Source: an uncultured Flavobacteriales bacterium
Lineage (GTDB): Bacteria; Bacteroidota; Bacteroidia; Flavobacteriales_D; Crocinitomicaceae
Length of the DNA stretch: 40,057 bases
Direction: 5' to 3'
Assembly (NCBI GenBank): GCA_903860985.1
Contig: CAIOSO010000175.1
Location: 1-40,057, forward strand
In this document: piece after piece, positions 30,444 to 34,828 of the stretch
Layout: every line of letters starts with the position of its first letter
Position numbering within the stretch: the first letter of the stretch is position 1
The notes under the pieces: model-generated
Databases searched by the model: none
Seen by the model: only the letters and a program-made list of their open reading frames with translations
Told to the model about the DNA's origin: nothing
Made by a program: the position numbers and the translations under genes

Positions 30444-31019
30444 TTAAGAAAAATGAACAGAAGAAGTTTTCTTTTCCTTAATCATGATCACAAATAAAAC
30501 GGCATCATAGGCAAAGTGAGCAGCGATGGAAAACCAAAGTCCGAAGTGAATAAATCCGAAGGAGATGATCACGATAAACGGCAGGACAATCAATCCATAC
30601 ATGGAAAATTTCCAATTCCATGGATTCAGGTAACCATGAAGCGCAACGAAAACGACTGACGTAATCCATGGTCCGAGTAGTGGTTGGATTCCAGCTCTAA
30701 ATAAAAGTTCTTCGCCAATCCCAGCGCATGCGGACAAAAAGATTCCATCTGAATAGGTGAGGGGTAGGTTGGTCAAGATGCGGTCGACTCTATCGGGTAA
30801 AGCATCAAAAAATGGTGCTTTCATAAAGAGATAGGCAATAAAGGCATAGGCGAAACCAAACTCCAATCCATAGCCAATTGAAATAGGATCAATTTTTTTT
30901 ACTTGAAAAAATTCTGTCCAACTCGTTTCATGAAAAAAATCAAGCAAAAAGAATCCAGGCAAAGGAAATAGAAGAAGTGTAACCAATCCAAGCATGCGTA
31001 TTTTTATAATATTTTGCAC
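30444..31019 (-). CDS. CPBP-family intramembrane metalloprotease
   Basis: 191 residues with several membrane segments. The family motifs are EELLFR (Glu103, Glu104, Arg108), ALHGYLNP (His128) and later AAHFAYD (His168), the metal and catalytic sites of CAAX/Abi (CPBP) proteases, which cleave within membranes. Substrate unknown. The start is a GTG at 31019; an ATG at 30995 (MLGLVTLLLFPLPG) is possible and would drop a short positively charged head. It ends about 30 bases before PAP2 on the same strand, separated by that gene's candidate promoter. Confidence 0.88.
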   Translation of the reverse strand: MQNIIKIRMLGLVTLLLFPLPGFFLLDFFHETSWTEFFQVKKIDPISIGYGLEFGFAYAFIAYLFMKAPFFDALPDRVDRILTNLPLTYSDGIFLSACAGIGEELLFRAGIQPLLGPWITSVVFVALHGYLNPWNWKFSMYGLIVLPFIVIISFGFIHFGLWFSIAAHFAYDAVLFVIMIKEKKTSSVHFS

Positions 31020-31142: not shown

Positions 31143-31742
31143 ATGGTTTTATCTTCGTTAAGCGATTCTGAATTAATCCGTTTGTATATTAATGAGAATG
31201 AAAGTGCCTTTGAGGCTCTTTTAAATCGTTACAAAAATCAACTATTCAAGTTCATTTATTTGAAAGTGAAGGATGTAGATTTAGCAAATGACATCTTTCA
31301 AGAGTCATTTATTAAAATCGTTCAAAACATCAAAGCAGGGAAGTACAATGAAGAGGGGAAGTTCCTTCCTTGGGCCACCCGCATTGCACAAAACTTAGTG
31401 ATTGATTATTACCGTAAGCAAGGCAAGGTTCGTGTTTTTTCCGAGCGAAACAGCTTTAATGAAGACTTTGGTATTTTTCAGCGCATCGCTTGTGAGAATA
31501 AAAACTACCTTCAAGAGAAATCTACCCAGGAATTGGAGCAACAACTGATTGAACTTTTGCACCACCTCCCGAAAGTTCAGCGTGAAATTGTGGAAATGCG
31601 TATTTTTCATGATTTATCATTCAAAGAAATCGCTGAATCCGAAAAGATTAGCATAAATACCGCTCTTGGACGTATGCGTTACGCGCTGATTAATCTGCGT
31701 AAGCTATTGGAAGAAAACGAGATAGTTACGCATTTCGCCTAG
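31143..31742 (+). CDS. ECF-type RNA polymerase sigma factor
   Basis: 199 residues. Region 2 (AFEALLNRYKNQLFKFIYLK, then DIFQESFIKIVQNI) and region 4 (LPKVQREIVEMRIFHDLSFK, then EIAESEKISINTALGRMRYA) match sigma-70 family group 4. It lacks sigma region 1 and 3. No anti-sigma gene or FecR-like gene is visible on either side; ffh starts about 85 bases downstream in the same direction. It is divergent from the CPBP protease. What it regulates cannot be said. ATG start, no better alternative. Confidence 0.9.
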   Translation: MVLSSLSDSELIRLYINENESAFEALLNRYKNQLFKFIYLKVKDVDLANDIFQESFIKIVQNIKAGKYNEEGKFLPWATRIAQNLVIDYYRKQGKVRVFSERNSFNEDFGIFQRIACENKNYLQEKSTQELEQQLIELLHHLPKVQREIVEMRIFHDLSFKEIAESEKISINTALGRMRYALINLRKLLEENEIVTHFA

Positions 31743-31795
31743 GTAAATTCGCATTCTTTTTCTAATAACTACCGGACTTTTCATCCTAATTTGGC

Positions 31796-31803
31796 TATCT
31801 TTG
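31796..31803 (+). promoter_or_regulatory. Candidate -7 element of ffh
   Basis: TATCTTTG, full match, ending 23 bases before the ATG of ffh. No good TTG or TTC is seen at the usual upstream distance, so support rests on the -7 alone. Confidence 0.45.
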
Positions 31804-31826
31804 TTGCTTAATATTATTGGATTATT

Positions 31827-33173
31827 ATGTTTGAAAATTTAACGGATAAGTTTGAGCGCGCGTTTAAGGTCCTGAAAGGACAAGGACAAATCACCGAAAT
31901 CAATGTTGCTGAAACGCTGAAGGAGGTTCGTCGTGCTTTGTTAGATGCCGATGTAAACTTTAATACGGCTAAGCAATTCACCAATACAGTCAAAGAAAAA
32001 GCCATGGGGCGCGATGTGTTGAACGCCGTTTCTCCTGGACAATTAATGATTAAAATCTGCCATGAGGAATTGGTGGAATTAATGGGTGGAAATGAATCTG
32101 AAATTAATTTAAAAGGTAATCCGTCTGTGATTTTAATGTCCGGACTTCAAGGTTCGGGTAAAACGACATTCTCCGGAAAACTTGGTTCCTACTTAAAAAA
32201 TAAAAAAGGAAAAAATGTATTACTCGTTGCTTGCGACGTTTATCGTCCTGCGGCAATTGATCAATTACATGTCCTAGGTGAACAATTAGGAATAGAAGTA
32301 TATTCCAATCGAGAAGAAAAAAATCCCGTTGCGATTTCTACTGCGGCGATTCAATATGCTAAAAGTAAGTCCTTTAATGTGGTGATCATAGATACCGCAG
32401 GACGTTTAGCTATTGATGAGCAAATGATGAATGAAATTGCTCAAGTCAAAGAAGCTGTTCAACCTCATGAAACCTTATTCGTGGTAGATTCCATGACCGG
32501 TCAGGATGCAGTAAATACAGCGAAAGCATTTAATGATCGAATCAATTTTGATGGCGTGGTCCTCACAAAATTAGATGGTGATACACGCGGTGGTGCTGCT
32601 TTATCAATCAAAGAAATTGTCAATAAGCCCATTAAATTTGTTGGGACGGGTGAAAAGATGGATGCATTGGATGTATTCTATCCTTCACGTATGGCAGATC
32701 GCATACTTGGTATGGGTGATGTTGTCTCGCTAGTAGAACGTGCTCAAGAGCAGTTCGACGAAGAAGAGTCAAGGAGATTGCAAAAGAAAATCATGAAAGA
32801 TCAATTTGATTTCAATGATTTCTTAGCGCAATTACAACAAATAAAAAAAATGGGGAATGTCAAAGACCTCATGGGCATGATTCCTGGAATGGGGAAAGCC
32901 ATGAAGGACGTAGATGTTCCTGATGACGCCTTTAAAGGAGTTGAAGCCATTATCTTGTCAATGACACCAAAAGAAAGAGCGAATCCCGCTTTACTGAATA
33001 ATCCGAGAAAAGCACGCATTGCCAAAGGAAGTGGAACAAGCTTGCAGGATGTCAATAAACTCATGAAACAGTTTGAGGACATGCGTAAAATGATGAAAAT
33101 GATGAGTAATCCCCGAAATATGATGGGGATGATGAACAAAATGAAAGGGATGGGCGGAATGCCTGGCATGTAA
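31827..33173 (+). CDS. ffh: Signal recognition particle protein Ffh
   Basis: 448 residues, full length. Ffh binds signal sequences of nascent membrane proteins and, with the SRP RNA and FtsY, targets them to the translocon. Order of domains: helical N domain, G domain with the P-loop GLQGSGKTT (106-114), DVYRPAAIDQL, DTAGR and TKLDGDTRGGAAL, then the M domain with RRLQKKIMKDQFDFNDF and a Met-rich tail (MMKMMSNPRNMMGMMNKMKG). A single base separates its stop from the start of the M50 protease gene, so the two are coupled. Confidence 0.97.
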   Translation: MFENLTDKFERAFKVLKGQGQITEINVAETLKEVRRALLDADVNFNTAKQFTNTVKEKAMGRDVLNAVSPGQLMIKICHEELVELMGGNESEINLKGNPSVILMSGLQGSGKTTFSGKLGSYLKNKKGKNVLLVACDVYRPAAIDQLHVLGEQLGIEVYSNREEKNPVAISTAAIQYAKSKSFNVVIIDTAGRLAIDEQMMNEIAQVKEAVQPHETLFVVDSMTGQDAVNTAKAFNDRINFDGVVLTKLDGDTRGGAALSIKEIVNKPIKFVGTGEKMDALDVFYPSRMADRILGMGDVVSLVERAQEQFDEEESRRLQKKIMKDQFDFNDFLAQLQQIKKMGNVKDLMGMIPGMGKAMKDVDVPDDAFKGVEAIILSMTPKERANPALLNNPRKARIAKGSGTSLQDVNKLMKQFEDMRKMMKMMSNPRNMMGMMNKMKGMGGMPGM

Positions 33174-33174
33174 G

Positions 33175-34119
33175 ATGGAGGAATTTGATATTTACCCTCA
33201 AAAACCCTTGATTGAGAAAGTTAAAATCGAAAGCAATTGGGGATTAACGTTTTTTTCATTGGTGCTTTTTGTCGGCACATTCTTGTTCCTTTTTAAGGAT
33301 CAGCTTCGTTTTGTTTTATTTCTGATTCTCGTGTTATTCATTCATGAAATGGGACATTTTATTTTCATGAAAATATTCAACTACGAAAATGTCCGTATGC
33401 TTTTCATCCCATTAATGGGCGCTTTTGTTCAGGGAAGCAAAGATAAATATTCGCAAAAAGAAAGTTTTTTAGTGATTTCCGCAGGCCCTTTTCCGGGAAT
33501 TTGGATTGGTTCGGCCATTCTGATTTTTGCTTCCATATATCAACAAGAATGGATGTTAGAATTAAGCTTTTTGTTTTTATTTTTAAACGTCGTCAATTTA
33601 TTACCGATTGATCCTTTGGATGGTGGACAATTGTTCAAATTGTTCGTGAATAAGAAGCGGGATTTGTTCCTCATGCTTTTCGCTTTGACTTCTTCTCTAT
33701 TAATGATTATTGTCGGTTGGATGATTGATAGTTATATCATTTTAGCTTTTGGCTTTTTGATGGGATTCAAAGTGCGAGGATTCCAACGTAGCTTCCATTT
33801 AAGAAAAGTGTTAGATGCCAAGCAAATTCGCTATGAATCTACCTATAACGAATTGTCCAACGAGGAATATGCGAAAATAAAAGAGGTGCTCATTGAGGAA
33901 ACCCCAGCATTAAAAAAGTTCTTAAGTGTTTCGGAAGAAAACAATGATGACTTATTGGCTTCGCATGTCAATTCCGCACTTTTAGCACCAGTTAAAAAAG
34001 ATGCTAAGTTCATGTTAAAAGCCATTATTGTTTTTTTGTGGTTACTTTCCTTGACTTTACCCGTCTATCTGCTAACAAGTGATTTACTCGATTTTAGTTG
34101 GTATTTTGAGAAATTATAA
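33175..34119 (+). CDS. M50-family (site-2-protease-like) membrane metalloprotease
   Basis: 314 residues. Hydrophobic segments begin at about residue 24. The zinc motif HEMGH (His57, Glu58, His61) lies in a membrane segment and the third ligand motif is LLPIDPLDGGQLF (Asp146/Asp149), both typical of site-2 proteases. After three further segments comes a soluble part (residues 200-280) and a last segment near the end (LKAIIVFLWLLSLTLPVYLL). No PDZ domain is seen. Members cleave transmembrane regulators such as anti-sigma factors; an ECF sigma gene is two genes upstream, but no anti-sigma. The start is one base after ffh. The gene ends ten bases before the next. Confidence 0.88.
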   Translation: MEEFDIYPQKPLIEKVKIESNWGLTFFSLVLFVGTFLFLFKDQLRFVLFLILVLFIHEMGHFIFMKIFNYENVRMLFIPLMGAFVQGSKDKYSQKESFLVISAGPFPGIWIGSAILIFASIYQQEWMLELSFLFLFLNVVNLLPIDPLDGGQLFKLFVNKKRDLFLMLFALTSSLLMIIVGWMIDSYIILAFGFLMGFKVRGFQRSFHLRKVLDAKQIRYESTYNELSNEEYAKIKEVLIEETPALKKFLSVSEENNDDLLASHVNSALLAPVKKDAKFMLKAIIVFLWLLSLTLPVYLLTSDLLDFSWYFEKL

Positions 34120-34129
34120 AACGATATTT

Positions 34130-34828
34130 TTGAAGAATTTCCTAGTCTACTTTTTTGTTTTGATTTCATCTCAGTTGATGAGTCAATGTGAACAAGTATT
34201 TGTCTCAGGAAGAGTGGTTGATACGATGAACAGAGATATGTTTTATAACTTAATGGTCATCAATAAATCTACTGGTCGCGGTGTTTTTGGTCAGCCAAAT
34301 GGCTATTTTTCTGTCTATGTAAATCCTGGAGATAAAATCGCGCTTTCTACCAAAGGGTATCCGGTTTACGAGTTTATCGCTTCTGCCGATAAAGATTGTC
34401 AAAATCACCTTCTTGCCTACATTGAACGCATACCTCAGGAAATTGAACAGGTAGTCGTTCGTCCATTGAAATCACTAGAACAAATCAAAGAAGAGCGACA
34501 ATCTTTAACACAGCGAGAAACACGTTTAGTAACTGGAATAAATGTGCTAGAAAGTCCAATTACCGCTTTGTACCAAGCCTTTTCCAAGAAAGAACAGAAC
34601 AAACGATGGATTTCGGAGCAGCAGTACAAAGATGACCAACGTCGCGTCGTGAAAGAGTTACTTCGCTTGTATGTGGCTTTTGATATCATTGATCTTTCTG
34701 AAGCTACATTTGATGACTTCATAACCTTCTTGAACATCGATGAGAACTTCATCAAAACGGCATCCGAAATGGAACTTGTGTTATTCATCAAAGATAAGTA
34801 CGATCATTTCAATCGCTTAAACCGCTGA
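34130..34828 (+). CDS. Exported protein with carboxypeptidase-regulatory-like domain, function unknown
   Basis: 232 residues from a TTG at 34130, chosen because it gives a normal signal peptide (MKNFLVYFFVLISSQLMSQ) and begins ten bases after the protease gene. A GTG at 34079 would overlap that gene by 41 bases and spoil the signal peptide. The mature part begins with a beta-sandwich-like segment (VFVSGRVVDTMNRDMFYNLM, then GQPNGYFSVYVNPGDKI, ending KGYPVYEF) of the carboxypeptidase-regulatory-like type, followed by a charged helical C-terminal half. I do not recognise the second half. It converges on the GT2 gene with a two-base gap. Possibly a partner of the protease, inferred from position. 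Confidence 0.75.
   Translation: MKNFLVYFFVLISSQLMSQCEQVFVSGRVVDTMNRDMFYNLMVINKSTGRGVFGQPNGYFSVYVNPGDKIALSTKGYPVYEFIASADKDCQNHLLAYIERIPQEIEQVVVRPLKSLEQIKEERQSLTQRETRLVTGINVLESPITALYQAFSKKEQNKRWISEQQYKDDQRRVVKELLRLYVAFDIIDLSEATFDDFITFLNIDENFIKTASEMELVLFIKDKYDHFNRLNR

Follow-up and report, generated by a model that had tools for sequence, protein, structure and literature searches.

A conserved ffh–M50 protease–exported protein gene unit in one lineage of Crocinitomicaceae, and a probable remote relationship of its exported product to BamP

Results

Four genes in a row, three of them kept together

The stretch of DNA analysed here (the window) is a 40,057-nucleotide piece of an uncultured member of the Flavobacteriales, family Crocinitomicaceae (GenBank assembly GCA_903860985.1, contig CAIOSO010000175.1), and corresponds to contig 175 in a draft assembly of 2.44 Mb and 191 contigs. 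It carries, in a row, the genes for an extracytoplasmic function (ECF) sigma factor, the signal recognition particle (SRP) GTPase Ffh, an M50 intramembrane protease and an exported protein (Table 1). An initial annotation of this DNA had pointed to this row as a system-like arrangement, and we found all four genes where it had placed them, including the exported protein gene behind the protease. The positions of the ffh stop codon and the protease ATG leave the single base between them that had been noted (TAAGATGG), and Ffh scores 623.4 bits against TIGR00959 (cut-off 473.2). The sigma factor carries regions 2 and 4 (Sigma70_r2, r4), and its end lies 84 bases from the start of ffh; since ffh is the next gene, no anti-sigma gene adjoins it, again as described. 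For the exported protein gene, the most likely start is the TTG at 34130; an alternative GTG at 34079 would give a longer frame that overlaps the protease gene by 41 bases.

Table 1. Features of the locus, in coordinates of the window
Feature	Position	Strand	Remarks
ECF sigma factor	31143..31742	+	Sigma70_r2 and r4; judged a neighbour, outside the unit; no adjacent anti-sigma
TATCTTTG, candidate -7 box of ffh	31796..31803	+	31 bases before ffh ATG
ffh, signal recognition particle GTPase	31827..33173	+	TIGR00959
PDZ-less M50 intramembrane protease, SpoIVFB/mjS2P-like	33175..34119	+	PF02163, catalytic motifs, profile match
Exported BamP-like protein	34130..34828	+	Signal peptide, CarboxypepD_reg-like domain, linker with SPITALY, helical C-terminal domain

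Conservation of the row was examined in 150 genomes of the family, 19 of them drawn from the genus of the window genome. Across the family, M50 is present in 117 genomes, ffh in 148, the exported gene in 147 and the sigma gene in 141 (at E≤1e-30); M50, ffh and the exported gene are each so widespread that each must be an old gene of its own. Within the genus, ffh, M50 and the exported gene stand in a row in 17 of 19 genomes, with gaps of -20 to +6 bases between ffh and M50 and of -59 to +45 bases between M50 and the exported gene (longest frame). Such tight and recurrent spacing at the first junction exceeds chance. An M50-profile search that yielded 80 named loci gave the same picture: in 57 of them M50 is flanked by ffh upstream and the exported gene downstream, in 23 by neither (a few of these with short upstream flanks), and neither partner is ever found singly beside M50. 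The named and unnamed locus sets share genomes, so this count of 57 is not independent of the 97 loci used below.

Outside the genus, the ffh–M50 junction was found in none of 93 genomes (98 have M50, and ffh was also located in 93). Ten of the 93 pairs share a contig, where they lie at least 134 kb apart; the other 83 are on separate contigs, with at least 4 M50 genes at a contig end, and there adjacency is less firmly excluded. The proposed synteny of ffh with the protease holds in most of the genus and breaks down beyond it, where relatives lack the arrangement, an outcome named in the initial annotation as speaking against its idea. What is system-like in the arrangement is its ffh–M50–exported part, a conserved putative operon in one lineage. 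A search of the literature on ffh–M50 operons found no title treating the arrangement. Together, these data establish the three genes as a real unit restricted to a single lineage of Bacteroidota from freshwater and marine habitats.

A single origin of the unit

In a four-gene tree of 46 tips, all carriers of the unit form one clade (split support 99), and the two genomes of the genus that have no unit are its sister (support 100). An earlier Ffh tree with partial data had set a marine group apart; the four-gene tree places this group inside the clade, and it is this placement that we rely on. Across the 28 tips of the clade, whose branch lengths sum to 4.7 substitutions per site, a different gene came to precede ffh on five occasions and to follow the exported gene on four; sigma adjacency changed twice, M50 was lost once, and the linkage of ffh with the exported gene did not change. 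Because 10 of the 28 tips are named loci picked for having the unit, this unbroken linkage is partly by choice, and a tree of M50 alone from 119 loci is the fairer check. There, the 74 ffh-adjacent M50 sequences cluster together save for one intruder, the non-adjacent locus L086 of another genus (support 0.49).

Elsewhere, the three genes keep other company. Outside the clade, 16 of 20 M50 loci (L071-L089) have an Smr-domain gene next downstream, as do both unit-less genomes of the genus (the Smr identity was assigned on one representative); the exported gene, again in 16 of 20 loci, stands next to a divergent mnmA-like gene (mnmA recognised by eye), and the sigma gene is adjoined by varied genes. 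Family-wide synteny of M50, the exported gene and the sigma gene revealed no common partner that hints at function, and across the class, where the surroundings of the exported gene could be read in 25 of 26 loci, no neighbour recurred in more than 4. Since the carriers form one clade and the genes have separate locations outside it, we conclude that three independent old genes, separate in other genera, came together a single time, on the stem lineage of most of the genus, and were then kept.

The gene order may be neutral, M50 and the exported gene having come to lie behind ffh by chance and having been kept because an essential gene's promoter is costly to leave, with products that are functionally unlinked; the single origin, the age of each gene and its location elsewhere in other genera all suit such an account, as does the loss of M50 in two genomes, which left the ffh–exported pair intact. 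Over the 28 tips and their 4.7 substitutions per site, however, the unit stayed intact while both flanks rearranged, and all three products act in the envelope by annotation or homology. We therefore regard neutral order as a serious contender, though with a chance below even. The reading we lean towards, with modest confidence, takes the three genes as a lineage-specific operon that serves envelope biogenesis and is transcribed from the housekeeping promoter of ffh; this function is assigned from homology and gene order. Findings on M50 weigh against it, as do the results against a BamP relationship given below: M50 is dispensable, having been lost in two genomes of the genus, and 33 of the 150 family genomes lack it. 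In the two genomes with the loss (G169 and G189; loci L274, 6517-8646, and L275, 7423-9552), 75 bases separate ffh from the exported gene, and a genome-wide search with the M50 profile found nothing at E≤1e-10.

A PDZ-less M50 protease

The protease matches PF02163 at 49.5 bits (cut-off 27.2) and carries the motifs of the family, HExxH and NxxPxxxLDGG, in membrane segments. Both motifs that had been reported as intact are so, HEMGH being encoded at 33343-33357 and LDGG at 33616-33627, and residues H57, E58, H61, D149, G150 and G151 are invariant in 29 aligned orthologues. This invariance makes it very likely that the protease is active. Within the order, 140 of 245 genomes were found to carry it; 134 of these belong to this family and 6 to a single other family.

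In profile searches of the PDB, its best matches were SpoIVFB (E=1.1e-14) and the Methanocaldococcus S2P (site-2 protease; MJ0392; 4.9e-13), with RseP matched weakly (0.0033). It shares with the first two the HExxH and (L/P)DGG motifs and the absence of a PDZ domain in family searches; unlike them, it has no CBS domain by Pfam (E≤0.05), has a C-terminal region of its own and is not a sporulation gene product. Against the RseP model TIGR00054 it reached 24.1 bits, below the cut-off of 147.55. The genome encodes two M50 proteins, and the second, a 469-residue open frame on contig 149, passes this model at 177.4 bits. A signalling role for the window protease is conceivable, because SpoIVFB is described as cleaving pro-sigma-K; what the evidence opposes is a link to this particular sigma factor.

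The ECF sigma factor as a probable separate transcription unit

The initial annotation had proposed, as a speculation, that a site-2 protease frees the sigma factor in a circuit that links SRP-dependent membrane insertion to sigma release. Such a circuit, in which M50 would free the ECF sigma factor from a membrane anti-sigma factor upon failed insertion, draws on the contiguity of sigma, ffh and M50 in the window and in 35 of 57 named unit loci, and on the fact that the two sigma-bearing groups stand apart on the tree. The same adjacency is labile, however: of the 17 unit-bearing loci in the genus it occurs in 9, it changed twice on the tree, and in the other 8 of 17 genomes the sigma gene lies elsewhere, though protease and sigma are both present. 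The sigma factor itself is well conserved (mean column identity 70 % in 12 aligned orthologues).

Partners that such a circuit calls for were likewise sought around the gene. No recurrent anti-sigma candidate follows sigma in the 30 loci read, and in 29 of these no anti-sigma gene was seen next to it by eye, the rest of the genome lying outside this search; in the remaining locus, L145, the sigma gene is a paralogue with an overlapping gene of 288 residues, a possible anti-sigma. This genome has 15 genes with sigma region 2 matches, two of them long and primary-like. Among the 13 of other type, at least 9 have a membrane-protein gene within ~50 bases behind them (by eye); the window sigma is an exception, with no membrane-protein gene directly behind. 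Although an M50 protease near an ECF sigma factor recalls the RseP/RseA/sigma-E pathway, the window protease is PDZ-less and SpoIVFB-like, fails the RseP model and has no anti-sigma gene alongside, and the true RseP is encoded elsewhere.

Finally, ffh appears to have a start signal of its own. The sequence TAnnTTTG, which we take to be the consensus of the Bacteroidota-type -7 box from work on Bacteroidota promoters, lies within 100 bases before ffh in 90 of 97 loci, including 44 of 44 sigma-adjacent ones, as compared to 9 % in shuffles; a promoter-like box of ffh is thus placed between sigma and ffh. Given the labile adjacency, the lack of a recurrent anti-sigma gene and this box, the upstream sigma gene is most simply interpreted as a separate transcription unit. 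The caution with which its link to ffh and M50 was first offered was right; we consider the circuit very unlikely, close to negligible.

Beside sigma and divergent from it lies a gene for a CPBP/Rce1-like protease (window 30444-31019; PF02517, 35 bits). This gene holds the same position in 9 of 9 genus loci in which its cluster was found, even where ffh is elsewhere, and is thereby a closer positional partner of sigma than M50.

The exported protein and its distribution

In the exported protein, a signal peptide precedes a CarboxypepD_reg-like domain (whose match is below cut-off), which a linker joins to a helical C-terminal domain. An AlphaFold2 model (mean predicted local distance difference test score, pLDDT, 85.6; predicted template modelling score, pTM, 0.48) fits this tripartite layout, with a predicted N-terminal beta domain, linker and helical C-terminal domain. 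Among 51 class-wide members, conservation peaks at residues 142-152, which include the motif SPITALY (encoded at 34553-34573), with 3.55 bits as compared to 1.90 for the N-terminal domain, 2.05 for the rest of the linker and 2.38 for the C-terminal domain. Model confidence is lowest near this same motif (block means of 54 and 68 around residues 131-150). High conservation where the model is least sure is expected for a segment that folds on a partner, as SPITALY may do.

The family was found in 70 of 197 sampled Bacteroidia genomes. None of these 70 is one of the six genomes, all of one other family, that have clear BamP-like sets; this pattern fits replacement of one protein by the other, in this single family. 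In some genera (L093, L096), the exported protein is ~410 residues long and its C-terminal part is repeated (second matches, residues 150-226).

Evidence on a remote homology to BamP

BamP is described as a component within the outer-membrane assembly (BAM) machine of Flavobacterium johnsoniae, with an N-terminal domain on BamA POTRA 4 and 5, a linker in the BamA barrel and a C-terminal domain of three helices (PMC12611786). The same source gives detectable homologues as limited to Flavobacteriaceae, and considers that other Bacteroidota would resist darobactin by other means or through unrecognised analogous proteins. BamP (PDB 9n2d; NF053692; PMC12611786) and the exported protein are alike in export, in a length of ~230-250 residues, and in a CarboxypepD_reg-like N-terminus, a linker and a helical C-terminus.

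Three lines of comparison connect them: firstly, 31 of 33 exported-family members match the BamP model at E≤1e-3, and of the 19 class genomes with a match to this model at E≤1e-12, 7 have it at the position of the exported-family gene itself; secondly, the profile of the 51 class-wide members matches BamP (9n2d_E) over residues 5-235 of 239 (E=1.7e-7); thirdly, comparing the exported-family profile with one built from 24 BamP-like proteins of a single other family gave 99.9 % over 250 columns. Profile-profile controls (reversal, 30 column shuffles, sigma, M50, Ffh and the BamP N-terminal half) stayed at or below 0.3 %.

A number of results weigh against this relationship. On the window protein, the curated model NF053692 scored 28.8 bits, short of its cut-off of 230 (two further weak matches in this genome score 26.6 and 23.7 bits). 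In the same class-wide profile search, SusC N-terminal domains outscore BamP, so a common domain accounts for much of the BamP signal. On its own, the C-terminal half reached 96.9 % against the 24 BamP-like sequences and 6.8 % against the five nearest BamP, indicating that its match rests on intermediate sequences, and a C-terminal profile run against the PDB returned 19 sequences up to E=10 with BamP absent. Structure searches compare the common N-terminal domain, the BamP chain in Foldseek being 146 residues long: on this domain, Foldseek placed BamP first with the weaker model of the exported protein and third with the better one, and VIA-align ranked SusC (Z 10.3) and carboxypeptidase domains (Z 10.1) above BamP (Z 9.1, 81 residues).

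The exported protein could accordingly be just another CarboxypepD_reg-like periplasmic protein with no counterpart in BamP. The missed cut-off, the N-terminal domain common to SusC proteins and the weak C-terminal half would all follow; the match over the full length, the shared tripartite layout with a helical C-terminal domain and the low control values would not, and we hold this alternative to be plausible but rather doubtful. At the level of homology, the profile comparisons indicate that the exported protein belongs to a family remotely related to BamP. It differs from BamP in lying far under the curated cut-off, in having its own linker with a near-invariant SPITALY, in occurring in other lineages and in the position of its gene beside ffh–M50.

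In one other family (L296-L298, L318-L323), genomes hold 3-6 BamP-model matches each, several in tandem.

Discussion

If the unit is an operon of envelope-biogenesis genes, its benefit is probably co-expression at a housekeeping level, with no regulatory circuit. Ffh would target nascent inner-membrane proteins, the M50 protease would clear or mature membrane-embedded peptides, and the BamP-like protein, putatively acting at BamA by analogy with BamP, would bind BamA on the periplasmic side and insert its conserved linker into the barrel in the manner of BamP.

A bolder proposal, which we find unlikely in its full form, is that a BamP-like family, founded by the exported protein, replaces BamP in Bacteroidia outside Flavobacteriaceae, that the SPITALY linker of this protein fills and guards the BamA barrel and lateral seam and confers the as yet unaccounted-for insensitivity of those bacteria to darobactin, and that in this genus a single mRNA encodes it together with Ffh and an intramembrane protease. 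If true, inner-membrane targeting would be tied to outer-membrane assembly in this genus. The two genomes without M50 represent a natural protease deletion and are usable as a control.

The new lead from this locus is thus the widespread remote BamP family. Being widespread, single-copy and remotely homologous to BamP, it is a concrete candidate for the gap left by the account in PMC12611786, and the ffh–M50–BamP-like operon would connect SRP, intramembrane proteolysis and outer-membrane assembly genetically in an unusually direct manner.

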